Positions 4,829-34,062 of a DNA stretch of 41,866 nucleotides are shown here, one piece after another. The position numbers and the translations under genes were made by a program. This DNA comes from Sphingomonadales bacterium (GTDB lineage: Bacteria > Pseudomonadota > Alphaproteobacteria > Sphingomonadales > Sphingomonadaceae). The number at the start of each line of letters is the position of its first letter. Within the stretch, counting starts at the first letter, position 1. Location: NCBI GenBank assembly GCA_013297725.1, contig JAAFIB010000018.1, positions 1 through 41,866 on the forward strand. Direction: 5' to 3'. Below the pieces are notes generated by a model, which had not been told where the DNA came from, did not search any database, and saw only the letters and a program-made list of their open reading frames with translations.

Positions 4829-7732
4829 TTATTTAACAGCACCCGCTGCAACTGCCTCGCTTACGATGCGGATTTCAAGTGCGCCGTCCGCTGTAAGATA
4901 TTGCTGTGCTGCCTTTTGCACATCAGCAGGAGTTATCGACGACCAGATTTCGGTGCGCTTTAACCTGCGGCCCAGCCGTTCGGGCCGTGTCTGCGCTTCT
5001 GAAATCGCACTCAACCAGCTACTATTTGACCGTTCCTGCGCAGTAAACTGTTCCAGTATCGGCTGGCGAACACGCAACAGAGCATCCTCGTTCGTCCCTT
5101 CATCGCGCAACCGCGCCACAATCGAAAGCAGTTCGGATTTCACCACATCGATGTTTTCCGGCGTTGTCGTGACCAACGACAGGAAAAAGCCATAGCCTGG
5201 AAAGGCGTTGGACGGGATCGAAAACGCCTGTGGCGTGTAGGTCGCACCCAGCTTTTCACGCAGTACGGCACGCATTTCGTTTTGCAAAACACCCGCCAGC
5301 AAATCACGCGCGGCTGTGGAGCGTTGATCGCTGTCATCGCTTGCAGGCCAATTGAGCATGATAACCGCCTGGTCATCCTTGCCCTTATGCGTCAGCACGC
5401 GCGGCGTCAGATCCTTGGGAAAAGCAATCCCCACCACCGACTTTGCTTTGCCGCGTTTGGGAAAGGCGCCCAATGTGCTTGCGATCGCTTTGATCGCCAC
5501 GGCTTCATCGACATCACCGACAAGCGAGATTTCAATCGGTCCGTTCTGCAATTCTGGCTGCAATACAGCTTTTAGTTCGTCCATATTGCGTTCCGACAAG
5601 CCATCAACATCGGCATTGGCGATACGCGGATCGCCATTTGCAAGGATGGAGAACACAGTAGTTTGTAGCGCTGCCATCGGATTAGTTTTCAGTTGGTCCT
5701 CGATAACCGGCGCCAAGGACTGCCAACTTTGATCGGTTTCAGCGCGATAGCCATAGGCTTTCACCGAAGCAGCGATCAACTGCATCTGGAATGCTAAGTC
5801 TTCCGGCGAAACACTGCCGACCGAGGCAATGTCACGTTGGCGCAAGGACAGCCCTGTTTTCACTTTGCGGCCTGCGATAATGCTTTGTAATTCATCAAAA
5901 CTATGCGCCGCCAATCCGTCCTGCGCTGATGTTGCATCCATGAAAGTGGGCAAGCCGGCGATCATCGTTTTCTGTCCGGCTAGGCCCGATCCGATCCGCA
6001 CGGCAAAATGCACTTTGCCCGGTTCAAAATCGGTTTTCTTGATGTTCAGCATCACGCCATTACGAAACTGGATGGTCCGGAAACCCAATTCGCTATTCTG
6101 CGTATCGCTGGCAATTTTTCCATCCGTGCCAAAATTGCTATACGCAAATTTCCCGACCTTTTTTTCCTCCAGCGGCGCAACAGCGATAGCGCGGCTTTCA
6201 CCAAACGCCGCCGATGCTAGCCCTGCGAAATTCTCAACAGGGGCTTTCGACGCGAGGTGGATATAAGTGATCCCGCTGCCCCAATCTTTCTTAAACGCAG
6301 CGTTCACCCTTTCCGGTGTGATCTGGCTCTTATAGGCTTCAAAAATTGCCAGATACTCGGCCGCCGTCATGGCAAATGTCCTGTTCAAGCCATCGTTTGA
6401 CAGGCTTGTTGCGATATCTTGATGGGCGCGGCTGCTTTCGGTTTGAACCGAAGACCGCGCGCTTTCCGCCAATATTTGCAGCGCCGCATCGACTTCCTTC
6501 TGGCTGAGACCATGCTCCGCCATTCGCCGATATTCTTGTTCGGCAAATTTTAGCGCACTTTGCCAATCCCCATCTTTGACAAGCGCAGACAACGACAAAT
6601 TATACGCTGCGCGGAATAAAGAGGCAGTGCCCGCACTGGCAGTCGCAACGCGGCTGTCAGTTGCGCGGCTCAATTGATCCAATCGTTTGGCAAAAGCGAT
6701 TTCCCATATCTGGGATAAAAAGCCGTCTTGATATTCCTCGATCGTGTTTTCATTGACCTCGAAGGGTTCGATACGAACCAGTTCAACCGCCTCAACAACA
6801 CCGGGATTAACAAAATTGCCATAACGTATGGTTTGACTGACATCGGCTTTGCCGTACACGTTTCCGCCAGCTTTATCGAAACTTTTGCCTTTGCCCCGCC
6901 AATCGGCAAAACGGGTTTTGATTTTCTGCTCAACCGCATCAACATCGAAATCACCAACCAGAACCAATGTCGCATTTTCGGGGCGATAGTTGCGTTCGTA
7001 AAAGCGGCGAACGCTTTCCGCCGGTGCGTTTTGGATATCACTCTGATCGTCTGTGAAAACGCCACTGCCAACGTTCGATTCAGGCACAGCATTTTTCATA
7101 TAGGCTTGAAAGTTGCGAATACCCGGATTGTCGCGCGTCGGCGCCTCAGCCAAAATCACGCCACGTTCTTTATCAATCGCATCTTTAGAAAGCGCCAGCT
7201 CGCTTGCGGTTTCGCGCATGATCATCAGCGCGGCGTCAATCATTTCATCATCAGCGCGGGGCAGATCAAGTTTGTACCGCGTATAATCCGGCCCGGTTTC
7301 TGCATTGGTGTCTGGACCAAATGCCAACCCCAACCGCTCAAGCTTTTTCAAAAGCTCCCCATCAGGAATGTTGGTCGATCCGCGAAATGCCATATGCTCC
7401 AAAAAGTGAGCAAGGCCGCGTTCGCCCTCAATCTCTGCCATGCGACCAGCATCAATTGTCAAGCGAACCGAAGCTGCACCTTTGGGCGTTTCATTCCTGC
7501 GCAACGCATACTTCATTCCGTTCGGCAAAACGCCGTAACGCACAGTACTATCAGGCGTCAGGTCATTGGTCGCAATGCCCCAGCCATTTTTTTGTTCCGC
7601 GACTTCGGTTTGCTCGTTAGTTTTCGGTGCTTCTGTGCCTTGCGCAAATGCAGGCAGCGATGACGACAAGGCGATAGCCATTGCGATGATCGAAACCGGG
7701 CGCACGACATTTTTCGAGATTTTAAACTGCAT
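4829..7732 (-). CDS. M16 family zinc metallopeptidase (pitrilysin/PqqL-like), secreted
   Basis: About 967 residues. The inverted zinc motif HFLEH is at residues 109-113, in the context GLAHFLEHMAFRGSTN that defines M16 peptidases; the length fits a protein with two fused M16 halves (PqqL-like). An N-terminal signal peptide ends near residue 30 (PAFA|QG), so it acts in the periplasm or is membrane-associated. I start at the ATG at 7732, because GGGGAG lies 7 nt before it; another in-frame ATG at 7747 has no clear ribosome site. The gene is monocistronic, convergent with the BlaR1-like gene and divergent from the MBL-fold gene. It probably degrades peptides or misfolded polypeptides. Confidence 0.9.
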   Translation of the reverse strand: MQFKISKNVVRPVSIIAMAIALSSSLPAFAQGTEAPKTNEQTEVAEQKNGWGIATNDLTPDSTVRYGVLPNGMKYALRRNETPKGAASVRLTIDAGRMAEIEGERGLAHFLEHMAFRGSTNIPDGELLKKLERLGLAFGPDTNAETGPDYTRYKLDLPRADDEMIDAALMIMRETASELALSKDAIDKERGVILAEAPTRDNPGIRNFQAYMKNAVPESNVGSGVFTDDQSDIQNAPAESVRRFYERNYRPENATLVLVGDFDVDAVEQKIKTRFADWRGKGKSFDKAGGNVYGKADVSQTIRYGNFVNPGVVEAVELVRIEPFEVNENTIEEYQDGFLSQIWEIAFAKRLDQLSRATDSRVATASAGTASLFRAAYNLSLSALVKDGDWQSALKFAEQEYRRMAEHGLSQKEVDAALQILAESARSSVQTESSRAHQDIATSLSNDGLNRTFAMTAAEYLAIFEAYKSQITPERVNAAFKKDWGSGITYIHLASKAPVENFAGLASAAFGESRAIAVAPLEEKKVGKFAYSNFGTDGKIASDTQNSELGFRTIQFRNGVMLNIKKTDFEPGKVHFAVRIGSGLAGQKTMIAGLPTFMDATSAQDGLAAHSFDELQSIIAGRKVKTGLSLRQRDIASVGSVSPEDLAFQMQLIAASVKAYGYRAETDQSWQSLAPVIEDQLKTNPMAALQTTVFSILANGDPRIANADVDGLSERNMDELKAVLQPELQNGPIEISLVGDVDEAVAIKAIASTLGAFPKRGKAKSVVGIAFPKDLTPRVLTHKGKDDQAVIMLNWPASDDSDQRSTAARDLLAGVLQNEMRAVLREKLGATYTPQAFSIPSNAFPGYGFFLSLVTTTPENIDVVKSELLSIVARLRDEGTNEDALLRVRQPILEQFTAQERSNSSWLSAISEAQTRPERLGRRLKRTEIWSSITPADVQKAAQQYLTADGALEIRIVSEAVAAGAVK

Positions 7733-24476: not shown

Positions 24477-24513
24477 TTCCTCGGCATAATGCCGTCGAAA
24501 TCTGCACTTTTAT

Positions 24514-24551
24514 ATGTGCGCGCTTTTTAGTGAAGGCGCGCACATGTTTTT
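24514..24551 (+). terminator. rho-independent terminator after the TIGR02300 gene
   Basis: A perfect 10-bp stem, ATGTGCGCGC (24514-24523) with GCGCGCACAT (24536-24545), 12-nt loop, then G and five T residues. The convergent LuxR-type gene ends at 24550, inside the T-run. Confidence 0.9.
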
Positions 24552-24840
24552 ATTTGTTAAATCGCAACTGCCCCTGTTCTGCACTGTGGACACCTGGACT
24601 GCTTAACTCAGTCTCCAACTGCAACAGGCCAAGCTCCATCGCCAGCGTTACCATATGGGTTCTGTTGCGGGCACGGATCTTTAACCGCACGTTTTCGATA
24701 TGCCGCTCTACCGTACGAGGCGCGATATCAATCTCTTGGGCAACTTCTTTGGCCGATAGGCCAAGAGCTACAAGTTCTAACACCTGATGCTCACGCGCTG
24801 TTAACAGCGGCACACCACTGGCAGGGTCCAAATGCAACAC
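24550..24840 (-). CDS. minimal LuxR-type HTH regulator (GerE domain only)
   Basis: A 96-residue protein that is little more than a LuxR/GerE DNA-binding domain: LTAREHQVLELVALGLSAKEVAQEI, then PRTVERHIENVRLKIRARNRTHMV. There is no receiver, PAS or autoinducer domain. The start is a GTG at 24840 with GGGAG 8 nt upstream; no earlier in-frame start seems plausible. A perfect AGTCT/AGACT dyad lies 19 bp before the start. It adjoins the FixK-like gene across a 398-bp AT-rich gap and may regulate the fibre-like locus; that link is positional only. Confidence 0.85.
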   Translation of the reverse strand: MLHLDPASGVPLLTAREHQVLELVALGLSAKEVAQEIDIAPRTVERHIENVRLKIRARNRTHMVTLAMELGLLQLETELSSPGVHSAEQGQLRFNK

Positions 24841-25238
24841 AGTTTTTACTCCCTCGAAAGTCTATAAGACTCGAAACAACATTACCGTTTGCAACCCGGA
24901 AAAAATTAAGAAAATTTAGATGCTTGAGCGTATCTTTTATTTGTTTTTTGTAAAACTATCTTAAACTAAAAACTCTCAGACGCCCCTCAGATGATCCGGA
25001 TACAAAGCCTATATTCCGACTCGAAACCGTTTCGATCATCTTCTTTGAATTAGCATATATACTAAGATATACCTAATTGTAAAATACCCTCAGCAAAACG
25101 CCTTAGTAAAATACCCCACGGGAATGCCCATGCGGAAAGCCCCACGGATTCCTCCCAATGGTCAGCAAAGGATCAGAGGCATAGCTTAGCACCATAATAA
25201 TAAGAGACTCGGGCCGCGCCGACCAAAGGGAGAGTAAA
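24841..25238. promoter_or_regulatory. 398-bp AT-rich divergent regulatory region
   Basis: No gene is visible between the divergent LuxR-type and FixK-like genes. The stretch is clearly richer in A/T than its surroundings. It holds a dyad AGTCT-ATA-AGACT (24859-24871), flanked by CTCGAAA words, a perfect palindrome TCGAAA-CCG-TTTCGA (25021-25035), and direct repeats GTAAAATACCC (25079 and 25106) and CCCCACGG (25114 and 25140), spaced 26-27 bp apart. These look like sites for more than one regulator. Confidence 0.6.
25079..25147. repeat. direct repeats upstream of the FixK-like gene
   Basis: GTAAAATACCC occurs at 25079-25089 and 25106-25116, and CCCCACGG at 25114-25121 and 25140-25147. The periods are 27 and 26 bp, about two and a half helical turns. 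They end 91 bp before the FixK-like start codon. Confidence 0.6.
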
Positions 25239-25943
25239 ATGCTCAGGCTACGCGGCCACACTGAACCCCGCATCCAAGCGGACCTATGTCCGATTTTGAA
25301 GTTTCGCAAAGGCGAAATTGTTTACGCGCAGGGCGACCCGGCAACTGACTGGTTTGAAGTTCTGTCCGGAACTGTACGCACCTGTTACCTTTACAGCGAC
25401 GGCCACCGGCAACTGACGGGTTTTTTCTATTCAGGCGACGTATTCGGTATTGAAACAGGCCATTACGCCTCCTCTGCCGAGGCCGTTACCGCAGTCACGC
25501 TGCGCCGTAATCCACAACGTAGAGAGCATCACGACGAGGCCCAAAAGGATCCATCGGTCCATGTTGCGTATCAGAGCGCACTGAACAACGCACAGGCCTG
25601 TATCTTCCTGCTTGGACGCAGGACTGCATCAGAACGGCTGGCGGCATTTTTGCTCGCTACGGCGAAACGTTTTATCCCGAACAAAGCGTTCGCCTTGCCT
25701 ATGTCCCGGTCCGATATTGCCGATCACTTGGGGCTTACAATCCACACTGTCAGCCGGACCTTATCCGAATTTGTCAGGCGCAAACTGATCCGTCTTGATG
25801 GCCCGCAATCCATTTTCATCGAGGACCATGCCGGGCTGTCAAGCCTAGCCCGTGGTGAAGAGCAGGCACCCTCGCTTGCTGAACAACGGCCGTATCAGGC
25901 GAAGACGAACAGCAGCGATTTTGTAGCACAATTCGGGAACTGA
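25239..25943 (+). CDS. Crp/Fnr family transcriptional regulator, FixK-like
   Basis: A 234-residue regulator with an N-terminal cyclic-nucleotide-fold sensor domain (FRKGEIVYAQGDPATDWFEVL, GFFYSGDVFGIETG) and a C-terminal winged helix (SRSDIADHLGLTIHTVSRTLSEF). The HTVSR recognition helix is of the Fnr/FixK kind. The CX2CX5C cluster of Fnr is missing, so it should not sense oxygen through an iron-sulfur cluster. GGGAGAG precedes the ATG. The outer-membrane barrel gene begins 2 bp after its stop. A FixK2-type palindrome upstream of the facing operon (30170-30183) makes that operon a plausible target. Confidence 0.88.
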   Translation: MLRLRGHTEPRIQADLCPILKFRKGEIVYAQGDPATDWFEVLSGTVRTCYLYSDGHRQLTGFFYSGDVFGIETGHYASSAEAVTAVTLRRNPQRREHHDEAQKDPSVHVAYQSALNNAQACIFLLGRRTASERLAAFLLATAKRFIPNKAFALPMSRSDIADHLGLTIHTVSRTLSEFVRRKLIRLDGPQSIFIEDHAGLSSLARGEEQAPSLAEQRPYQAKTNSSDFVAQFGN

Positions 25944-25945
25944 TC

Positions 25946-27340
25946 ATGACGCATAACTCTATCGAACGCAGCGTGCTAGGCACGCTTGGTTGCGCAGCGG
26001 GCTTTACGGCACTGGCCATCCCATCACAGGCTGAAGCCGCCAGCATCTTGCCAATTGCGGCAAGCGGAGATGCCGTCAAAGCAGCTCTTGTCAAAACCGA
26101 CTATGTGAAATTTGCTGACGCTGAAAACGCTGATGACAAGCCGGTGGCCGTTGCGCCACCGACAGCAGAAACTGACGTGGCCGATCAATTGGCTGCGCTT
26201 GTTGCCGAATTAAAGGCGCAGCGCGCATTGATTGCAGAGCAAAATGCAATCATCGCGCGCCAACAGGCGTCGATAGACCAGCTGATGGGGCAAAGCACCG
26301 CCGACACCAGCCTTTCGCTTATGCGGGCAACTGGTTTTGGCCAAGACAGTGTAGCGCGGGAAACCGCCCCTGCTCCACCAATGCAAACGGTTGGTGAAGC
26401 GCCGCCGCCGCCAGACGAGACAATCACCGACACTCTGACAGCTCTGCCAGAAGGCCAAGGCGTGTTGACGCCGAAAGGACAGACTGTCCTTGAATCCTCG
26501 TTTGAATATACACGCACTTCAAAAAATCGGCTGGTGTTCCGGGGCTTTGAACTGATCCCCGGATTGCAAGTCGGCCTGATCGAGGCATCGGATGCTGATC
26601 GCGATACGATGGTCGGCACTGTCGCATTGCGCCACGGCGTGACCAACAGGTTAGAGATAGAGGCACGTATGCCCGTCCTTGCACGGCACGATCGTATTCA
26701 GGTTGTCCAACAACGTGATGAGGGGATTGTCCGCCAGATTTCACTAACGGACCATTATATAGGCGATGCCGAGGTTTCGCTGAGATATCAGTTTAATGAC
26801 GCCAAAGCGACCGATCACGCGATTTTCGTGGGCAACCTGCGCGTCAAATCTAATACCGGCAGAGGACCGTTTGACATTGACTATGACGATTTTGGTGTTG
26901 CCACCGGGCTGACCACAGGATCCGGTTTTTGGGGCGTGCAGGGCGGCGTAAGCTTTCTGATCCCGTCCGACCCCGTAGTCATTTATGGCGGCACCAGCTA
27001 TCTTTATCACATTCCGGCTACGGTAAATAAAACGGTCGGTGGTGCATTGATTGGCCGGGTTGATCCAGGTGATGCGATTTCGGGCAATATGGGTTTTGGC
27101 TTTGCCCTGAATTCCCGCTTTTCGTTCTCATTGGGATATAATCACAGCTATATCTTCCCGACAAAGACACAGATTAACGCAACCACACAGCGCTCAACCG
27201 CTCTGCAGGTTGGTTCATTGGCGATCGGTGCATCGTTCCGCACAAGCGACCGGACTTCGGTCAACATGGCGTTTGAATTTGGGATGACATCGGATGCACC
27301 AGATGTATCGATGACACTGCGCCTGCCGCTGCGGTTCTGA
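25946..27340 (+). CDS. outer-membrane beta-barrel with N-terminal coiled coil (FapF-like secretion channel candidate)
   Basis: A 464-residue protein. A signal peptide ends near residue 30, a coiled coil spans about residues 78-116 (ADQLAALVAELKAQ onward), a Pro-rich linker follows (137-157), and the last 280 residues alternate as amphipathic strands. The chain ends in LRLPLRF with terminal Phe, the signal for outer-membrane barrel assembly. A periplasmic coiled coil joined to a barrel is the architecture of FapF, the channel that exports Fap amyloid subunits. The facing operon encodes a C39-type peptidase and secreted Asn-rich proteins, as in fap loci. Similar barrels are sometimes mislabelled as acetate kinase. 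The name rests on architecture and context. Confidence 0.6.
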   Translation: MTHNSIERSVLGTLGCAAGFTALAIPSQAEAASILPIAASGDAVKAALVKTDYVKFADAENADDKPVAVAPPTAETDVADQLAALVAELKAQRALIAEQNAIIARQQASIDQLMGQSTADTSLSLMRATGFGQDSVARETAPAPPMQTVGEAPPPPDETITDTLTALPEGQGVLTPKGQTVLESSFEYTRTSKNRLVFRGFELIPGLQVGLIEASDADRDTMVGTVALRHGVTNRLEIEARMPVLARHDRIQVVQQRDEGIVRQISLTDHYIGDAEVSLRYQFNDAKATDHAIFVGNLRVKSNTGRGPFDIDYDDFGVATGLTTGSGFWGVQGGVSFLIPSDPVVIYGGTSYLYHIPATVNKTVGGALIGRVDPGDAISGNMGFGFALNSRFSFSLGYNHSYIFPTKTQINATTQRSTALQVGSLAIGASFRTSDRTSVNMAFEFGMTSDAPDVSMTLRLPLRF

Positions 27341-27448
27341 CAGATTCTTAATGAGCACTATTGCGGCCTAGCGCGTGCGTGTAGCAGGCGCCGTATTCCC
27401 AATTGAAGAGGTGAAGCGCGTTTGACGCTATCAACAATATGCGCTGAT

Positions 27449-28054
27449 TTAGCGGGCGGCGGCTGCGGTCGCGGCCGACAGAGCCGATGATAATGCGCTG
27501 GCAATCCGGCTGTTGATGATTTCGCTGCTAAAGTTCTGATAGCCGGTCAAACCAAGCGTAACATCAGTCTCTTGAGTCAAAGTCATGTTGCTGGCGTTGT
27601 TAATCAGAACATTTTGGATACCACCATCGGTCCGCTGAATAATCGCGGTCTGTCCTTCGTTTGCGACAAACACCGGATTTTGTCCCATCCGTATGGCTAC
27701 AGCACCGCCAGTGGTAAAGCCTGCACGCAAAGCATCCATACTGGATTGCGACAATATGCCAGAGACGATCTGGCTAGTGGTAGCACCGCCCTCGCCCCAG
27801 TTGACTGATGTTTGCAGCACCAATTGACCGTTCAGATAGGTTCGCATTTGCGCGCCAAGTTGAATGTTCATCCCAGCGACAACAAAGCGGCCACGTTGTT
27901 CCGACAGTTCAGCGTCAGAAACGATGCGCGGTAGATCCTGCAATGCTGCAGCGGGGGCTACAGCGTCAAAACCGTCATTCGCTTTCGCGGCGCTTGGTGC
28001 CACGATAACCGCAACGGTGGTTGCAATCAGGGGAAATGCAAAATCTCGTTTCAT
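27449..28054 (-). CDS. secreted protein of the fibre-like operon (FapE-like candidate)
   Basis: A 201-residue protein with a signal peptide (to about residue 25). Near residues 47-62 it has [19 protein letters not shown], which resembles the DSDLLQMRGGQAIVVGNQ stretch of the 153-residue neighbour. The middle is rich in Gly, Gln, Asn and Thr with alternating strands ([36 protein letters not shown]) and the end is an Ala-rich helix. It is the last gene of the operon, 5 bp after the C39 peptidase gene. Position and composition suggest the role of FapE, an extracellular component of the Fap system; homology is not proven. Confidence 0.6.
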
Positions 28055-28059
28055 GGTCT

Positions 28060-28848
28060 TTACTCGCCGACTGTGCCGACGCGCACCGGTATCGTGAGTT
28101 GCGGCGTCAGCTGATATGTTGGGGGAAGATGGCTGGTAATGTCGCCAATGGTTAGCGTCTGGCTATTTGCGTCAACCGGTGCGACGGACCAGGGTGCCCA
28201 GTCTACGACCAGATTATAGCGCGGTGCCGGCGCCGTTCTGTTTTCGACAATGGCAAGGCCAATACCGTTCCACATTTTGGCAAAATCGGCTTTGTTGTAT
28301 TTGGTTAGCCCTAGAATGGAATCGCCAACAAGGACGGTCCCTTCGTGGACGCCCTTTACAACAACGAAATGCTTGAAACCATTTAGGTCCAGTAGCACGA
28401 TTGCGGGCCGTTTCCATTTGGCCAGATCGTCCACCGTCATTTTATATCCCTCGGCATGGATGCCTATGGAATGCAGATAGTTTTTCATGTCGAACATCGA
28501 AAAACCGGATTTCATGATGATCGCCTGATCACCCGATTTCCACATTGCAGCGAACGTCTGTTGTTCAGATGTAGGGCGGCGATAATGATAGGTCAGCAGC
28601 GTTGCGAGCGCGGCGGATCCGCAGCTAAAATCATATCTCTGACGCACGACTGAGCGAAAGGGGATATCGACCCAAGACATGATTTTAACGGAATAATTGG
28701 CCCCGGTTGCTTCTGGTCCGAGATGAACCTCGGCCTGCGCGACAGCTGGCGCTAGCAGAATGGCCATGCAAAAAGGCGGCGTTATTATGCGCCGCAGGCT
28801 AAGCCAACGCTTCCATTGCGACCCGGTGTCGGCTTGTGCAAATTTCAT
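28060..28848 (-). CDS. C39-type cysteine peptidase, periplasmic (FapD-like)
   Basis: A 262-residue protein with a long signal sequence (hydrophobic core 22-38, cleavage near AVAQA). The peptidase core has Gln70 and Cys76 in [18 protein letters not shown], His160 in [10 protein letters not shown] and Asp176 in VGDSILG, giving an intact C39 catalytic set. Unlike bacteriocin exporters there is no ABC transporter fused or adjacent. A stand-alone secreted C39 peptidase beside a coiled-coil barrel and Asn-rich secreted proteins is the mark of FapD in functional amyloid operons, where it is needed for fibre export. The likely substrates are its three operon partners, which is inference. AAGGA lies 9 nt before the ATG. 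Confidence 0.75.
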
Positions 28849-28902
28849 CTGGGCAATCCTTGTGCCAGGCCTTGTGCAGTTAATGCATTGAGCCGGAATT
28901 GG

Positions 28903-29364
28903 TTATTGCGCGAAATTGATCGTAACATTCATGGCTGATTGCAGGTTATTCTGCGCCCCGGTGTTGATCACCAAGTTACCAAGGCCATTGAAGTTAGAAA
29001 GCGTATTGTCGGCAAGCGCGATGCTGCCAGCGGTATAATTGCCAGTAAAGGCGTTGCCGTTGCTGATTGCTGTCAGCGTCTGATTGCCAACAACAATGGC
29101 TTGACCGCCGCGCATCTGCAGCAGATCTGAATCGGCAATAACATTGGGATCAGCTGCAATGACCATGGCGGGTGCATCAATCACATCGGCCACTAAAGGC
29201 TGTTCGGTTGATGCAGCATCCGCTGCCGTATCGGTTGGCTCGATCACTATTACTGGATTTGCGGAGCCTTCAGCATCCTGAGCGAAAGCAGCCGTGGGAA
29301 GGGATATAGCGGCTATGATAGCCATTGGGATCGTCACAGGGACGAATAACTTTGTCCTGAACAT
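28903..29364 (-). CDS. secreted fibre-subunit-like protein (FapB/C-like candidate)
   Basis: A 153-residue protein starting at the ATG at 29364, which has AGGAG 8 nt upstream and gives a clean signal peptide (to PTAAFA|QD); a longer in-frame start has neither. After an acidic linker it has the double-glycine motif DLLQMRGG (residues 80-87). Then comes an Asn/Gly/Thr-rich domain, VVGNQTLTAI to NVTINFAQ at the C-terminus. This domain aligns by eye over its whole length with the end of the 195-residue neighbour (VV..QTL.AI, NTG, N.Q.A.N, F.Q). It may be a minor fibre or nucleating subunit; alternatively an adhesin-like secreted protein. Confidence 0.6.
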   Translation of the reverse strand: MFRTKLFVPVTIPMAIIAAISLPTAAFAQDAEGSANPVIVIEPTDTAADAASTEQPLVADVIDAPAMVIAADPNVIADSDLLQMRGGQAIVVGNQTLTAISNGNAFTGNYTAGSIALADNTLSNFNGLGNLVINTGAQNNLQSAMNVTINFAQ

Positions 29365-29392
29365 TGATCGAACTCCTGTTTGCACTGAAATG

Positions 29393-29453
29393 AAATGATG
29401 ACCGGATTTCCTGAGGTCTGGGGGGTACGGGGAGGGAAATCCGGCCATCATTT
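29393..29453 (-). other. 19-bp stem-loop between first two genes of the fibre-like operon
   Basis: Arms at 29393-29411 and 29435-29453 are complementary at 18 of 19 positions, and the odd position is a G-U pair in the minus-strand RNA; the loop is 23 nt. No strong T-run follows. It lies in the 99-bp gap between the 195- and 153-residue genes and could protect the upstream message or attenuate read-through. Confidence 0.75.
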
Positions 29454-29463
29454 TCAAGCTACC

Positions 29464-30051
29464 TTATTGTGAGAAGGTAACTGTACCGCGAGCCGCAATG
29501 TTGGTTGCAGCTTGTGCATTGGCATTGATGCCTGTGTTCCAGCCCTGGTTCAGGATGCCGGAATAGGCTGCAAATGCGTTGCCGTTCACAGAGTTATTGC
29601 CGCTGCTGTAATCGCTAAGCGCAAGACCGCTTTGGAAATTCAGTGGCGCTGCATTGGCATTAATCGCCAACAACGTCTGGGTCGCAACGACAGCCGAGCT
29701 GTCATTACCGTTGTTGGAGTTATTGACCGAGTTGTTCGAGCTATCCGAATTGAATGAGCCCAATGCGAATGCGAGATCCGTGTTGTTCGAGCCATTTGTT
29801 GAGTTGTTGGAATTATCCGAGTTATCGGAGTTATCCGAATTGTCCGAATTGTCGGTGTTGATCGACTTATTGTTCAAAATGTCGCTAACGCCAATGTCGG
29901 TCGATGTTGTTGTCGTAGACGCAGTGTTGCCAACACCAGCCGCTGTGGCTGGACCGCCGGTTGTTGTCGACGCAACTTGTGCAGCAGCAGGCAGTGCCAA
30001 GCCGCATGCAAGAACCAATGCCGAAGCAGAGAGTGCAATTTTCATTTTCAT
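29464..30051 (-). CDS. Asn/Ser/Asp-rich secreted protein (fibre major-subunit candidate, FapC-like)
   Basis: A 195-residue protein with a signal peptide (to residue 24, PAAA|Q). Residues 28-55 are Thr/Gly-rich. Residues 61-118 are almost entirely Asn, Ser and Asp, with five exact DNS repeats (67-81). The C-terminal 75 residues (VVATQTLLAI to TVTFSQ) share a module with the 153-residue neighbour. It has no cysteine after the signal peptide and few charged residues apart from Asp. Composition, secretion and first place in an operon with a C39 peptidase fit a functional-amyloid subunit. It lacks the C-terminal CxxC of Pseudomonas FapC, so any relation is distant. GGAGA lies 7 nt before the ATG. 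Confidence 0.65.
   Translation of the reverse strand: MKMKIALSASALVLACGLALPAAAQVASTTTGGPATAAGVGNTASTTTTSTDIGVSDILNNKSINTDNSDNSDNSDNSDNSNNSTNGSNNTDLAFALGSFNSDSSNNSVNNSNNGNDSSAVVATQTLLAINANAAPLNFQSGLALSDYSSGNNSVNGNAFAAYSGILNQGWNTGINANAQAATNIAARGTVTFSQ
29809..29853 (-). repeat. 9-bp tandem repeats encoding (Asp-Asn-Ser)5
   Basis: Five near-identical 9-bp units encode five consecutive DNS triplets in the 195-residue secreted protein. Units differ at third codon positions, so the repeat is conserved at protein level rather than being a fresh slippage expansion; length variation between strains is possible. Confidence 0.85.
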
Positions 30052-30373
30052 GGGTCGTCTCCAGTTAGTAAGATAATCTCCGATCGGCCCCTGTTTAACT
30101 GGGTCCTAGAGATTGGACTGCCCACACCTTGCGGGCCATTTCGTAATACAAAATTTTACAGGTGCCCTTTTGCGATAACGCAAGAATAGCGGGAGAATTT
30201 TTACGTAGTGTTTTGCACTCCGTAGCTTTGCCTCGCTGCGGCATCCGACGATCGAGTATGGGAGCAACAATCCGGACAATACGCTGCAAAAAAATTCGCG
30301 CTTGCATAACGGCGCGCGTTGCCTGTAAAGGCGCGCCTTCATATCACCATAGCCGCTCCGTTGTGCGGCAGAT
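30052..30373. promoter_or_regulatory. 322-bp region upstream of the fibre-like operon and tRNA-Ala
   Basis: No convincing gene is present. It should contain the minus-strand promoter of the fibre-like operon and the plus-strand promoter of tRNA-Ala. Notable elements are the TTGC-N6-GCAA palindrome (30170-30183) and a 12-bp palindrome AAGGCGCGCCTT (30328-30339), preceded by a related GGCGCGC word at 30311. Confidence 0.6.
30170..30183. promoter_or_regulatory. FixK2-type box upstream of the fibre-like operon
   Basis: TTGCGATAACGCAA is a perfect palindrome fitting the FixK2 consensus TTG(A/C)-N6-(T/G)CAA known from rhizobia. It lies 119-132 bp before the start codon of the 195-residue secreted protein gene. 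A FixK-like regulator is encoded 5 kb away in the same locus. Confidence 0.55.
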
Positions 30374-30487: not shown

Positions 30488-31111
30488 CTAATCCCCATAC
30501 GCATCCAGAAACCGATCAACAGCATCGGGCACTTGCTGTTGCAGCTGATGCGGGTCCGGGCCATTTTCTGAAAAACGGGCAAAGAACATATCAAAGCCGC
30601 AGATCAGACCGTAAAGATGGCCAGCGGCCATCTCGCAATCACATGGGCGGATTGTGCCTTTTGATACCGCACTTTCCAACAGCGCGGTTAACTCACGGCG
30701 CAGGCGCCTTGGCCCCGCGTTCAGAAACAGCTCGCCAACCTCTGGCCGCAGTTCTGCCTCTGCGCCAATCCGCCGTTCAAAACGCATGACATGCGGCTGG
30801 GTCAGGAAGTCGACCATTGTTTCACCAAAGGCGATCAGCTGCTGCCGCAAATCTGTGCCGGGTGCATCGGGTGCCACAAAAACAGCACTCATCATCGTGC
30901 ATTGACGCTCAACCACTGCTGCGAACAATGTCTCTTTGGTTTTGAAGCGATTGTAGATCGTCACCTTTGATACGCCGCTGACGGCGGCAATGGTTTCAAT
31001 CGATGCCGCAGCAAAGCCGTGTGTAAAAAATTCGTCACGCGCAGCATCCAATATCGCCTCGCGTTTGACGAGGTCGACGGGACGGTGCCTTGGCTTTTTT
31101 CCTGTATCCAC
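30488..31111 (-). CDS. TetR/AcrR family transcriptional repressor
   Basis: A 207-residue TetR-type repressor. The N-terminal HTH is textbook: REAILDAARDEFFTHGFAAASIETIAAVSGVSKVTIYNRFKTKETLF. The C-terminal helical domain, which would bind the inducer, resembles the AefR/AcrR-like C-terminal domain (CDCEMAAGHLYGLICGFDMFF). It is divergent from a four-gene efflux operon, and the 113-bp gap contains two matching dyads, so it very likely controls both. The inducer is unknown. Confidence 0.93.
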   Translation of the reverse strand: MDTGKKPRHRPVDLVKREAILDAARDEFFTHGFAAASIETIAAVSGVSKVTIYNRFKTKETLFAAVVERQCTMMSAVFVAPDAPGTDLRQQLIAFGETMVDFLTQPHVMRFERRIGAEAELRPEVGELFLNAGPRRLRRELTALLESAVSKGTIRPCDCEMAAGHLYGLICGFDMFFARFSENGPDPHQLQQQVPDAVDRFLDAYGD

Positions 31112-31131
31112 CCCATTCCCACTTTACATTA

Positions 31132-31165
31132 TGAACGATTGCGTTCAATTATACGCCTGCGTTCA
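31132..31165. promoter_or_regulatory. double TetR-type operator
   Basis: A perfect dyad TGAACG-ATTG-CGTTCA at 31132-31147 and an imperfect copy TATACG-CCTG-CGTTCA at 31150-31165, 18 bp apart. They lie between the TetR gene (start 31111) and the efflux operon (start 31225), placed to repress both. Confidence 0.7.
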
Positions 31166-31224
31166 TTATCTCATAGATTCGACGGTTGGGCAAGGTTTGT
31201 AACCGGAAAGGCGAGTAAGCGAAA

Positions 31225-32364
31225 ATGACCTGGATTGCGCTTAGAATGCTGACCGGCGACCGGCAGAAATTCATCGGGCTGATCTTTGGCATCGCGTTCT
31301 CCACGCTGCTGATTACGCAGCAGATGACGATCTTTGTGAACCTGATCCAGCGCGGGGCATCTGCGGTTTACAATGTCGGCACTGTTGATTTGTGGGTGAT
31401 GGACCCCGCCTCGCGCACCACAGATGTAGTTTACCCCATGCCGTCAACTGCGCTTGATAAGGTGCGCGGCGTAAAGGGCGTTGAATGGGCTGCGCCCTAT
31501 TTGCAATCCGGTGCGACAATCCGGACACCAGAAGGTGATCTGGAAGGAGTTAGCGTTATTGGTGTGGATGACAGCACTCTGATCGGACTGCCGCGCAGGA
31601 TGGTTAGCGGCGACAAATCCGCACTATATGAACCCGACACAGTATTTGTTGATGATGTCGGGGCTGAGAGACTGTTCCCGGCAGGCGTTAATCCAATCGG
31701 CCGGATGCTTGAGATTAATGACCGGCGTGCAGTTATCCGCGGCATTGTTGATACGACACCAACCTTCACCAGTCAGGTAATCCTCTACACCCGCTATTCC
31801 AGCGCGTTAAGCTATGTGCCGGGCACCCGCAACCGGCTAAGCTTTGTGGTCGCTCGCGCCGCAGATGGTGAGAGTGCAAGGGTTATTGCAGACAGGATCA
31901 CAGCGCAAACCGGCCTAAAAGTGCGGACACGCGACGAGTTTGCCGCCGACGGTCGCAATTTCATTATTGAGAACACTGGTATCCCGGTGAATTTCGGTAT
32001 TACTGTGGCGTTGGGCTTTATCGTAGGGGTCGCGATTGTGGGGCTGACGCTCAGCCTGTTTATCCGCGATAACATCAAACAGTTTGGCGCGTTAAAGGCC
32101 ATCGGCGTTACTAATGGTAAAATCCGGCTGATGGTCGCGGCTCAGGCCGGGCTTGTCGGATTGGTTGGTTATGCGGTCGGCGTTTTGGGGGCGGTCGCTT
32201 TCGTAAATGGCTTTGCAAGCGGTGGCGGCTTTTTCAAAGGTTTCTATACGCCGTGGCAAATCCCGGTCATGACCGCGATTGTTACTGTGGTGATCCTGAC
32301 ACTTACCGGTCTGCTCGCACTGCGCACTGTCCTTAAAACTGAACCGGCATCGGTGTTCAGATGA
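31225..32364 (+). CDS. ABC transporter permease, FtsX/DevC-like
   Basis: A 379-residue MacB/FtsX-fold permease. A first membrane helix lies near residues 15-35. A periplasmic domain of about 220 residues (ASAVYNVGTVDLWVMD, PASRTTDVVYPMP) follows, then three C-terminal helices (NFGITVALGFIVGVAIVGLTLS, LVGLVGYAVGVLGAVAF, IPVMTAIVTVVILTLTGLLA). This resembles DevC of cyanobacterial glycolipid exporters and other type VII tripartite efflux permeases. The ATPase gene overlaps it by 4 bp (ATGA). Confidence 0.88.
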   Translation: MTWIALRMLTGDRQKFIGLIFGIAFSTLLITQQMTIFVNLIQRGASAVYNVGTVDLWVMDPASRTTDVVYPMPSTALDKVRGVKGVEWAAPYLQSGATIRTPEGDLEGVSVIGVDDSTLIGLPRRMVSGDKSALYEPDTVFVDDVGAERLFPAGVNPIGRMLEINDRRAVIRGIVDTTPTFTSQVILYTRYSSALSYVPGTRNRLSFVVARAADGESARVIADRITAQTGLKVRTRDEFAADGRNFIIENTGIPVNFGITVALGFIVGVAIVGLTLSLFIRDNIKQFGALKAIGVTNGKIRLMVAAQAGLVGLVGYAVGVLGAVAFVNGFASGGGFFKGFYTPWQIPVMTAIVTVVILTLTGLLALRTVLKTEPASVFR

Positions 32365-33065
32365 GCGAGGCTCCCGCAATCTCTGTACAAAATATCAGCC
32401 GCGATTTTGAAGCGGGCGGGCAGATGCTGCGCGTGCTGCATAACATCGAAACTGACATAAAGGCGGGCGAGCTGACTTATCTGGTCGGCGAATCGGGTTC
32501 TGGCAAAACGACACTGATTTCGATTATCGCCGGTATTCTCTACCCGACCGAAGGTACAGTTTCCGTCTTTGGCACTGACATATACCAGCTGAGTGATAGT
32601 GATCTGGTGCGTTTCCGTCTGGCCAATATTGGCTTCATTTTTCAGCAATACAATCTGCTACCATCGTTGACTGCCGCCGAAAATGCCTCGGTGCCATTGG
32701 TTGCCGCAGGAATGGCGCGTCATGAGGCGCTTGAGCGCAGCAGAGCGATCCTTGAGAAGCTGAACATGACCAGCCAAGCGGAGAAGCGGCCCAACCAGCT
32801 TTCAGGCGGGCAGCAGCAGCGGGTCGCCATTGCCCGCGCACTGGTGCACGAACCCCGGCTGATTGTTTGCGATGAGCCAACTGCAGCACTCGACGCAAAA
32901 TCGGGGCGGCGGGTCATGGATTTGCTGCGTGAAGTGGCCCTGTCACCAGACCGATCCGTCATTATCGTTACCCATGACAATCGTATTTTCGACCTCGCGG
33001 ACCGCATCCTCTTAATGGAGGATGGGCGGATCACCCGCGATGGCCGCGACGCAATGGAGCATTAA
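32361..33065 (+). CDS. ABC transporter ATP-binding protein (DevA/LolD-like)
   Basis: A 234-residue ATPase of the MacB/LolD/DevA class. Walker A is GESGSGKTT, the Q-loop [17 protein letters not shown], the signature [15 protein letters not shown], Walker [13 protein letters not shown] and the H-loop VIIVTHDNR; all are intact. It powers the permease encoded just upstream and overlaps that gene by 4 bp. Confidence 0.95.
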
Positions 33066-33075
33066 GGACTAAGCC

Positions 33076-34062
33076 ATGCAGCTACCCAGTTTCTCACGCA
33101 AAATCCTGCCTGTTCTTGCCATCGGGGCAATCTTGCTTGCCGCTTTCTGGGTGCTGTCCAGCCAGCCGGACCGCAGCTTGGAGAAACCTGAAAAGAAACC
33201 GCCAGAGGCATCGACAGCCAATGGCGGCAAAGCGAGCGTTGCGGGCTCCGGCGTGATTGAGCCATCAAGCGAGACAACCGAAGTCGGCACCAATGTGTCA
33301 GGTGTAGTCACAGAGGTCTTTGTTCAAATCGGCCAGCGGGTCGGCAAAGGCACGCCGCTTTTTGCGGTCGATAGCAGGCAGGTGCGGGCCACGCTCAAAG
33401 AAGCAGAAACCGGAATGGCCGAGGCTCGTGCAGGAATTAACGAAGCGCAAACCAACATCAACACCGCGCGGCGGCAGCTGGCGCTTTATCGCAGTGTCGA
33501 TGATGCCCGAGCGGTATCTCGATCAGAAGTGATTGCAGCAGAAGGGACACTTGCCGATGCCCGGGCCCGGCTATCTGCGGCACGGGCGCAATTAACGGCG
33601 GCACAGGCTCGCAGGGCAAGTGCGGCAACTGAACTGTCCCGGCATATCGTTTATGCCCCGATCAGTGGCGAGATACTGGATGTTGAAATCCGGCCCGGTG
33701 AGTTTGTTTCAGCAGGCGGCCAGAGCGGCAGCAACGCAACGCCCTATATGCAGATTGGCGAAACACAGCCATTATATGTTCGCATCGATATTGATGAAAA
33801 TGAAGCGGCGCGGATCACTACAGGCGCAGGTGCCGTTATCAGCCCGCGCGGCAACGCTGCAAAGCGCGTGCCGGTCACGTTCGTTCGGGTCGAGCCGCAG
33901 ATTGTGCCGAAACGATCGCTTACCAATAGCGCTAGCGAACGTGTGGATGTGCGCGTGATGCAGCTGATTTACGCAGTGCCGCTGGACGAGACTGGTCTTC
34001 GCGTTGGGCAACAAGTTGATGCCTTTGTCGAAATGGGCAACGCCAAGGAAACAAAGCAATGA
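33076..34062 (+). CDS. HlyD/DevB-family periplasmic adaptor protein
   Basis: A 328-residue membrane-fusion protein. It has an N-terminal membrane anchor (residues 10-27), a Pro/Lys-rich linker, the split lipoyl domain (GSGVIEPSSETTEVGTNVSGVVTEVFVQIGQRVGKG and APISGEILDVEIRPGEFV), a helical hairpin between them (about 105-190) and a beta-barrel domain. It should bridge the DevC-like permease to the outer-membrane factor encoded next. The start lies 10 bp after the ATPase gene. Confidence 0.92.
   Translation: MQLPSFSRKILPVLAIGAILLAAFWVLSSQPDRSLEKPEKKPPEASTANGGKASVAGSGVIEPSSETTEVGTNVSGVVTEVFVQIGQRVGKGTPLFAVDSRQVRATLKEAETGMAEARAGINEAQTNINTARRQLALYRSVDDARAVSRSEVIAAEGTLADARARLSAARAQLTAAQARRASAATELSRHIVYAPISGEILDVEIRPGEFVSAGGQSGSNATPYMQIGETQPLYVRIDIDENEAARITTGAGAVISPRGNAAKRVPVTFVRVEPQIVPKRSLTNSASERVDVRVMQLIYAVPLDETGLRVGQQVDAFVEMGNAKETKQ

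Follow-up and report, generated by a model that had tools for sequence, protein, structure and literature searches.

Among the closest described relatives of the locus reported here, which lies in a 41,866-nucleotide stretch of DNA from a Sphingomonadales bacterium (contig JAAFIB010000018.1; hereafter the window), is the functional amyloid (Fap) system of Pseudomonas. Fap is encoded by a single fapABCDEF operon, places amyloid fibres on the cell surface and comprises FapB/FapC subunits with Fap repeats, FapE, a stand-alone, Sec-exported C39 peptidase with catalytic Cys, His and Asp (FapD), and a pore with a periplasmic coiled coil and a plugged beta-barrel (FapF). The available part of PMC3792158 restricts Fap to the Beta-, Gamma- and Deltaproteobacteria, assigns FapD and FapF to larger families, and reports that FapA is often absent and that a separated fapF is a common deviation from the operon. 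PMC6173800 records FapD-FapF pairs from another five phyla, lists Erythrobacter, Porphyrobacter and Novosphingobium as carriers of Fap systems, and gives the FapD substrate as undetermined; a 2018 review also calls it undetermined and names FapE as the suspected substrate. According to the available text of PMC5557850, FapC secretion needs the FapD Cys, FapE yields no peptides from its first ~70 residues, and Fap proteins have no canonical C39 sequences. Excerpts of PMC6173795 tie Gln layers of the pore coiled coil to Gln/Asn-rich amyloid substrates.

We find that the window locus probably serves the export of surface fibres and is based on the FapD/FapF machine, which would trim and export a cargo set of its own. 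This set consists of three Sec-type exported proteins that we named Sub1, Sub2 and Sub3. Four observations are established here: homology of the pore and the peptidase to FapF and FapD, a conserved gene set, conserved leaders, and a relation between Sub1 and Sub2.

The pore, the peptidase and the conserved gene set

The genes lie where the original prediction, made from the sequence alone, had placed them, with the barrel at 25946-27340, the secreted proteins in minus-strand open reading frames (ORFs) and the peptidase at 28060-28848. The minus-strand order is Sub1, Sub2, C39 peptidase and Sub3, and these genes are faced by those of a Crp/FixK-like regulator and the barrel. The features are as follows.

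24477-30373, strand not applicable: inserted segment that contains the entire locus and is bounded by the FYDLN_acid gene and tRNA-Ala(ggc), G+C 0.521
24550-24840, minus: LuxR-type helix-turn-helix regulator, 96 amino acids, a probable locus regulator (Pfam GerE, 3.2e-17)
25239-25943, plus: FixK-like regulator of the Crp/Fnr family, encoded immediately before the pore gene (NCBIfam FixK, 1e-41)
25946-27340, plus: FapF-type outer-membrane pore, 464 amino acids, with signal peptide, Gln-layered coiled coil in the periplasm, and beta-barrel
27449-28054, minus: Sub3, 201 amino acids, with Sec-type signal, leader at residues 45-56 and then a predicted folded domain; in FapE's position
28060-28848, minus: FapD-type stand-alone exported C39 cysteine peptidase, 262 amino acids
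28903-29361, minus: Sub2, 152 amino acids, with Sec-type signal, double-glycine leader IADSDLLQMRGG at residues 75-86, and C-terminal Asn-rich NTG domain
29464-30051, minus: Sub1, 195 amino acids, an Asn/Ser/Asp-rich secreted protein with no double-glycine leader and a C-terminal domain akin to that of Sub2

For the second secreted protein, the predicted ORF 28903-29457 is present, but its start is probably the ATG at 29361 rather than the ORF end at 29457; this reassignment, made by eye, renders the signal peptide N-terminal and places 'caggag' upstream.

The locus itself is confirmed, and chance is ruled out because the C39 peptidase, the barrel, Sub2 and Sub3 are grouped in 66 of 80 named loci. 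These 80 are the best of at least 582 relatives from a peptidase-alignment scan of species genomes, and they fall in the Sphingomonadales (32), Burkholderiales (8), Caulobacterales (7), Rhodospirillales (6) and other orders, including the Geobacterales (2). Nine of the remaining named loci lack only the barrel, two lack Sub2, two lack Sub3, and one lacks both barrel and Sub3. A Sub1-like, Asn-rich ORF, recognized by a composition filter, lies upstream in 66 of the 80. Similar results are obtained when the search starts from Sub2 alone: its profile matches 16 of 398 Pseudomonadota genomes at 1e-6, the window's included, and, beyond the window, locates 17 places spread over 15 genomes (two places, in G707, share one peptidase gene). 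A C39 peptidase lies within 1.5 kilobases (kb) at 17/17 of these places and a separate Sub3 match is found at 16/17; at the seventeenth, L207, Sub2 is interrupted by a stop and is itself the sole Sub3-like match. The expected co-occurrence of these genes in other genomes is thus observed from both starting points, the Sub2-based one covering the peptidase and Sub3, since its flanks were too short for the barrel to be assessed. The FapD/FapF machine would then serve this cargo family in Alpha-, Beta- and Gammaproteobacteria and in Geobacterales, in environmental genera that include Sphingopyxis, Brevundimonas, Cupriavidus and Lysobacter. Sphingopyxis italica DSM 25229 (L046) and Sphingopyxis sp. 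LC81 (L042) are among the carriers. One genome, G570, carries two Sub2-peptidase clusters ~3 kb apart (L195 and L210), perhaps a tandem duplication.

The barrel, proposed originally to be a FapF relative, is indeed homologous to FapF. It matches the NCBIfam FapF model at 2.9e-31 (108.7 bits, under the 700-bit equivalog cut-off) and, by sequence, the FapF crystal chains 5o65, 5o67 and 5o68 in the PDB (best 4e-24). A classical FapF model, built from five sequences, recovers the window barrel (5.6e-41) together with all 88 system barrels below 600 amino acids (those of at least 600 were excluded). By homology, then, the protein has the periplasmic coiled coil and beta-barrel of FapF. The predicted coiled coil is borne out: starting at residue 82 there are five heptads, in which three of the 'd' positions are Gln, and at least three heptads with Gln at 'd' occur in 72 of 91 system barrels, compared to 3.1 expected from shuffles with this crude pattern. 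As a mark of classical FapF as well, these heptads were rejected, since the same crude pattern finds them in only 1/5 classical barrels and 0/8 barrels of minimal peptidase-pore pairs. The pore gene is convergent with the other locus genes, as had been noticed, so that they do not form a single operon of the fapABCDEF kind; such inversion is common, with the pore gene on the opposite strand in 39 of the 70 named loci that have a detected barrel.

The peptidase is a clear homolog of FapD (NCBIfam, 3.1e-45, 154.2 bits, under the 330-bit equivalog cut-off) and matches Pfam Peptidase_C39 at 1.8e-19. The catalytic Cys, His and Asp, described earlier as intact, are C76, H160 and D176; together with Q70 they are present and are invariant in 13 aligned relatives, so that by sequence this is a stand-alone, Sec-exported C39 peptidase of the FapD type. 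Peptidase family and double-glycine leaders would also suit a C39 processing cluster of the bacteriocin type. However, a bacteriocin exporter carries its C39 domain fused to an ATP-binding cassette (ABC) exporter, whereas the window peptidase is a stand-alone protein of 262 amino acids with a signal peptide, and its usual partner is a FapF-type pore. ABC-fused C39 domains, moreover, form a clade of their own apart from it, both in a quick tree (5/5 rows; Shimodaira-Hasegawa-like approximate likelihood ratio test, SH-aLRT, 100) and in a careful tree (3/3 rows, 100/100). We regard a bacteriocin cluster as barely credible, in agreement with the earlier expectation that the peptidase would not group with bacteriocin enzymes.

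Membership in the Acinetobacter Fil ('putative pilus') system is very improbable. The barrel matches FilC at 4.8e-22 (78.8 bits of a 630-bit cut-off) and the peptidase matches FilB at 6.8e-38 (130.6 bits of 475), and the FilA of L193 has, by eye, a leader-like stretch near its N-terminus. The FapF and FapD models nevertheless outscore FilC and FilB, no FilA, FilE or FilF model appears at E ≤1 among the matches listed for ten window proteins, and in both trees FilB sits alone on a long branch, away from the window peptidases. The NCBI cut-offs for FilB and FilC are not reached by the window proteins; indeed, none of their matches to the NCBIfam FapF, FilC, FapD, FilB and FapE models attains NCBI's curated cut-off. 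An Acinetobacter record, L161, has its FilB-type peptidase split over two reading frames (5848-6687), and this broken gene was excluded from the trees and from the neighbour-leader groups described below.

The careful tree has 88 rows, 34 loci having been thinned out beforehand. Classical FapD forms one clade (SH-aLRT 97 in the quick tree, 100/91 in the careful tree), and the window peptidase falls within a 22-row set in which every row belongs to the same system (96/86). Classical Fap, Fil and the minimal pairs are grouped (98/80), and the ABC outgroup attaches among system rows. In the quick tree, classical Fap had seemed to branch from within this system; this was dropped, as a tree that keeps the 103 system rows together scored 52.65 log units higher and is not rejected by the approximately unbiased (AU) test (p-AU 0.909). 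Only the classical Fap clade and the window's 22-row set stand firmly as secure groups.

Cargo proteins and their leaders

Sub1 is Asn/Ser/Asp-rich, as first described (N 17%, S 15%, D 6%), and low in charge, with 4 Lys+Arg in 195 residues. Sub1 and Sub2 have related C-termini (hhalign E 2.3e-10, probability 96.8, 64 columns), and N[T/S]G is nearly invariant in the Sub2 C-terminal domain. The earlier statement that the subunits have no clear FapB/FapC match holds: no FapB- or FapC-named NCBIfam model matches the three Sub proteins at E ≤1, leaving no Fap subunit recognized among them, and the FapC model NF058558 has zero matches in the genome at E ≤10. A plain fap operon was ruled out by this negative FapC result. 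Across 9,898 ORFs, a Fap-repeat model finds at E <1 only 10 FapB/C proteins (its builders), five Sub2 and two classical FapE.

Sub3 occupies the position of FapE and resembles it only locally. Its match to the NCBIfam FapE model is only 0.0022, over residues 42-73, and its hhalign E value against FapE is 2.5e-6 for the whole proteins and 0.26 for the mature parts only; the alignment consists of the leader and the next ~20 residues. Structure prediction with AlphaFold2 gave a confident domain for Sub3 but not for Sub2. In the Sub3 model (mean predicted local distance difference test score, pLDDT, 79.0), pLDDT stays at ~90 from residue 61 onwards, apart from a drop over residues 111-120, so that the confident folded domain starts right behind the leader. 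No PDB entry reached E ≤0.001 in a fold search with this model; the best had 1.4e-02 and a template-modelling score of ~0.1. The Sub2 model, mostly coil, was dropped from fold comparison.

These results bear on the alternative of a genuine fapABCDEF operon that evolves rapidly, in which Sub1 is FapC, Sub2 is FapB and Sub3 is FapE. A pore and a peptidase of the same families, the FapE-like leader in Sub3, and the reach of the Fap-repeat model to five Sub2, a weak sign of common subunit descent, would all be expected from it. The silent FapC model, the unlike mature parts of Sub3 and FapE, and a Sub2 leader with no counterpart noticed in FapB/FapC proteins argue in the other direction, as does the separate classical peptidase clade. 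In addition, classical Fap coexists with the window type, in the same genus (G021) and even within one genome (G183, on different contigs). We consider this alternative distinctly unlikely. Given the shared pore and peptidase and the weak repeat and FapE likeness, sequence comparison indicates that the export machine is common to Fap and this system and that the cargo is largely this system's own.

The double-glycine leader is the classic recognition motif of C39 peptidases and is typical of exported peptides. Behind the Sec signal, both Sub2 and Sub3 carry a motif that we take to be this standard leader: position -12 is hydrophobic, -7 is Leu/Met and -2 is Gly, and -3 and -1 are usually Arg and Gly, respectively. 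A strict form of the pattern occurs in 79 of 105 Sub3/FapE proteins, while shuffled sequences average 5.3 (highest 12 in 200 runs), and in 32 of 98 Sub2 proteins, compared to a shuffled mean of 2.85 (highest 8). Elsewhere it is found in 1/117 peptidases, 12/106 barrels (8.6 expected) and 199/4,182 other ORFs. Position -12, which the strict pattern leaves free, is V/L/M/I in 73/77 Sub3, a count that omits 28/105 rows with no strict pattern or no R/H at -3. Among 98 aligned Sub2, -12 is L/V/I/M in 91, -7 is L/M in 98, -2 is Gly in 90 and Ala in 8, and -1 is Gly in 56. AlphaFold2 places a short helix inside the leader, at residues 77-84 of Sub2 and 47-54 of Sub3. Sub1 was rejected as a leader substrate, for the window Sub1 shows no double-glycine pattern and the Asn-rich ORFs show it in 10/113 cases versus 12.2 expected.

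A second pattern, the leader joined to a hydrophobic segment in a same-strand neighbour within 1 kb, is found in 98/103 system loci, 5/5 classical Fap loci and 5/8 minimal pairs. In all five classical loci the neighbour is FapE, reading RGK, RGR or HGK at the matching place. Thus, the leader would give one exact predicted cleavage site per protein, which bears on the question of the FapD substrate.

We propose that Sub1, Sub2, Sub3, the C39 peptidase and the pore subunits enter the periplasm via Sec, as their signal peptides suggest, and that the peptidase there would recognize the second, double-glycine-type leader of Sub2 and Sub3 and cut after it. The trimmed proteins, together with Sub1, would exit through the trimeric FapF-type pore, whose Gln-layered coiled coil, by analogy with FapF, probably gathers or gates substrates. 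Outside the cell, Sub1 and Sub2 may form a fibre or a matrix coat by polymerising through the Asn-rich domain common to their C-termini; folded Sub3 would be its base or anchor, analogous to the proposal for FapE. The FixK-like and LuxR-like regulators probably turn the locus on.

The same machine could instead export soluble secreted peptides or adhesion factors rather than fibre subunits; leaders of this type are typical of exported peptides, and minimal peptidase-pore pairs are accompanied by small leader-bearing proteins (L033, L154-L157). Sub1, however, is low in charge and Asn/Ser-rich and shares an Asn-rich domain with Sub2, and Gln layers in pore coiled coils are linked to Gln/Asn-rich amyloid substrates in the available excerpts of PMC6173795. 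Furthermore, a sigma-54 activator precedes the pore gene in L022 and L029, that of L029 passing the VpsR-domain cut-off. Such cargo is, in our judgement, unlikely, though it deserves serious consideration.

Several points weigh against the fibre-export reading itself. Cleavage, secretion route, and the fibre and amyloid nature of the cargo are steps that we infer. The strict leader pattern was written after 12 Sub3 and 10 Sub2 sequences had been viewed, and it is absent in 26/105 Sub3 and 66/98 Sub2; the window Sub3 reads RGR, not RGG, at the proposed cut site. The loci scored for leaders include near-copies, and some are shorter than 6 kb. Controls for the neighbour pattern are non-zero, both on the opposite strand (5/103 system, 1/5 classical, 2/8 minimal pairs) and at 3-6 kb (11/103, 1/5 and 2/8), and only 5/8 minimal pairs score at all. 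The AlphaFold2 model of Sub2 is mostly coil and of low confidence (pLDDT 63.6), and the likeness to Fap repeats is weak for Sub2 (hhalign 0.0019, probability 14.1) and for Sub1 (0.011, probability 3.7). As to the original interpretation of a diverged, Fap-like locus, the barrel has FapF relatives, the peptidase stands apart from bacteriocin enzymes and the genes occur together elsewhere; the interpretation is supported, and its amyloid part is one that we infer.

Distribution and genomic setting

A FapD-model search of 61 genomes gave matches in 20, of which 14 were strong (E <1e-20), the others being mostly long proteins of the ABC-transporter kind. Within the window's genus (37 genomes, G000-G036), the survey foreseen at the outset located the window type in four (G000, G002, G012 and G026). 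In its place G021, another member of this genus, carries an operon of the classical Fap kind that encodes FapB/FapC-type repeats (L021 1840-7217). Among 385 genomes drawn from the class, 22 give a match at E ≤1e-20, the window's included, and wide regions were examined for 20 of the 24 places found in this class-wide search. Three are classical Fap by their FapB/C-like repeats (L140-L142), ten are of the window type (L143-L151 and L159; Sub2 match in 8/10), and seven are minimal peptidase-barrel pairs (L152-L158). G183 holds both the classical and the window type, on separate contigs. Classical alphaproteobacterial Fap loci have an extra exported protein of ~200 residues between FapE and FapF (L142 9410-10042, L021 5215-5820, L140 5599-6225); that of L142 matches PG_binding_1 at 5.8e-9 and is a possible cell-wall anchor.

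The window locus occupies an inserted segment. In 29/29 other genomes of the genus for which the site was returned, the FYDLN_acid gene is followed by tRNA-Ala(ggc) within roughly 80-120 base pairs, whereas in the window 5.9 kb, the entire locus, separates them, and the segment's G+C of 0.521 compares with 0.559 and 0.568 on its two flanks. No integrase was seen by eye within 24477-30373. G002 and G026 have the system and yet keep the short junction (L166, L192); therefore, their locus sits at another place. Just past the tRNA, at 30488-34062, a TetR-type regulator lies beside a DevBC-like ABC exporter set (permease, ATPase and adaptor).

Both regulators anticipated for the locus were recovered, as the FixK-like Crp protein (142.6 bits, below the 300-bit NCBIfam cut-off for FixK) and the 96-residue LuxR-type protein. 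Relatives of the Crp protein (E ≤2e-29) adjoin the barrel in 17 other loci, and 13 loci besides the window's (L039, L041-L051 and L076) have a short LuxR relative (90-169 residues, E ≤3e-18) no more than ~4 kb from the barrel. The sigma-54 activators mentioned above, from more distant relatives, are encoded at L022 4900-6414 and L029 5305-6762; that of L022 is below the Pfam VpsR cut-off.

Comparison with known systems

For curli (CsgG, CsgA and CsgB), no subunit or secretion model in Pfam or NCBIfam matches at E ≤1 in a search confined to the pore and Sub proteins. ABC transporters with fused C39 share with the window locus the C39 fold and the logic of the double-glycine leader, but theirs is a cytoplasmic domain fused to the exporter, while the window peptidase is Sec-exported and paired with an outer-membrane pore. 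Fil has a related peptidase (FilB) and barrel (FilC); it differs in FilA, FilE and FilF, which were not found among the window proteins, and in its weaker scores than FapD/FapF.

The minimal FapD-FapF pairs of other Alphaproteobacteria (L033, L152-L158) likewise have a stand-alone C39 peptidase adjoining a FapF-like barrel and a small leader-bearing neighbour, in 5/8 by pattern, with L152 and L153 leader-like by eye. Unlike the window locus, they have no assigned Sub1/Sub2/Sub3 set, and their barrels lack the heptads (0/8). Small exported proteins with leaders such as LSxxQMDxVxAG were seen in L033 and L152-L157, three of them in L157.

Among the results listed by searches of open-access literature we found no published description of the gene set, and the leader motif and the Sub1/Sub2/Sub3 cargo are absent from the available portions of PMC3792158, PMC6173800, PMC5557850, PMC5135000 and PMC6173795. 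The suggestion that the system may be undescribed is only partly right, because the available text of PMC6173800 mentions FapD-FapF pairs and sphingomonad Fap systems. Already published, then, are FapD-FapF pairs that do not belong to Fap, as are Fap systems of sphingomonads, and what appears new from the sequences is the Sec-then-double-glycine leaders on Sub2 and Sub3, the FapE variant, and the distinct, conserved cargo set.

With Fap, the window locus shares a FapF-type coiled-coil barrel, a FapD-type exported C39 peptidase, three further exported proteins, and a leader-like motif in FapE and in Sub3. No FapA-named model appears at E ≤1 among the matches listed for the ten window proteins to which that search was confined. 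The two differ in that the window locus has no recognisable FapB/FapC repeats, its mature Sub3 does not resemble FapE, Sub2 is a second protein with a leader, the pore gene is convergent and the peptidase belongs to a separate clade. In the alphaproteobacterial regions examined, the window type accounts for 10/20 and classical Fap for 3/20. We lean slightly towards the view that Fap is one branch of a larger two-leader class (Sec signal, then double-glycine leader), in which a periplasmic FapD-family peptidase would remove the leader before or during exit through a FapF-family pore, and that the window represents a branch with its own fibre cargo. This sister system retains the full double-glycine leader on exported proteins, and classical FapE a degraded version at the corresponding position.

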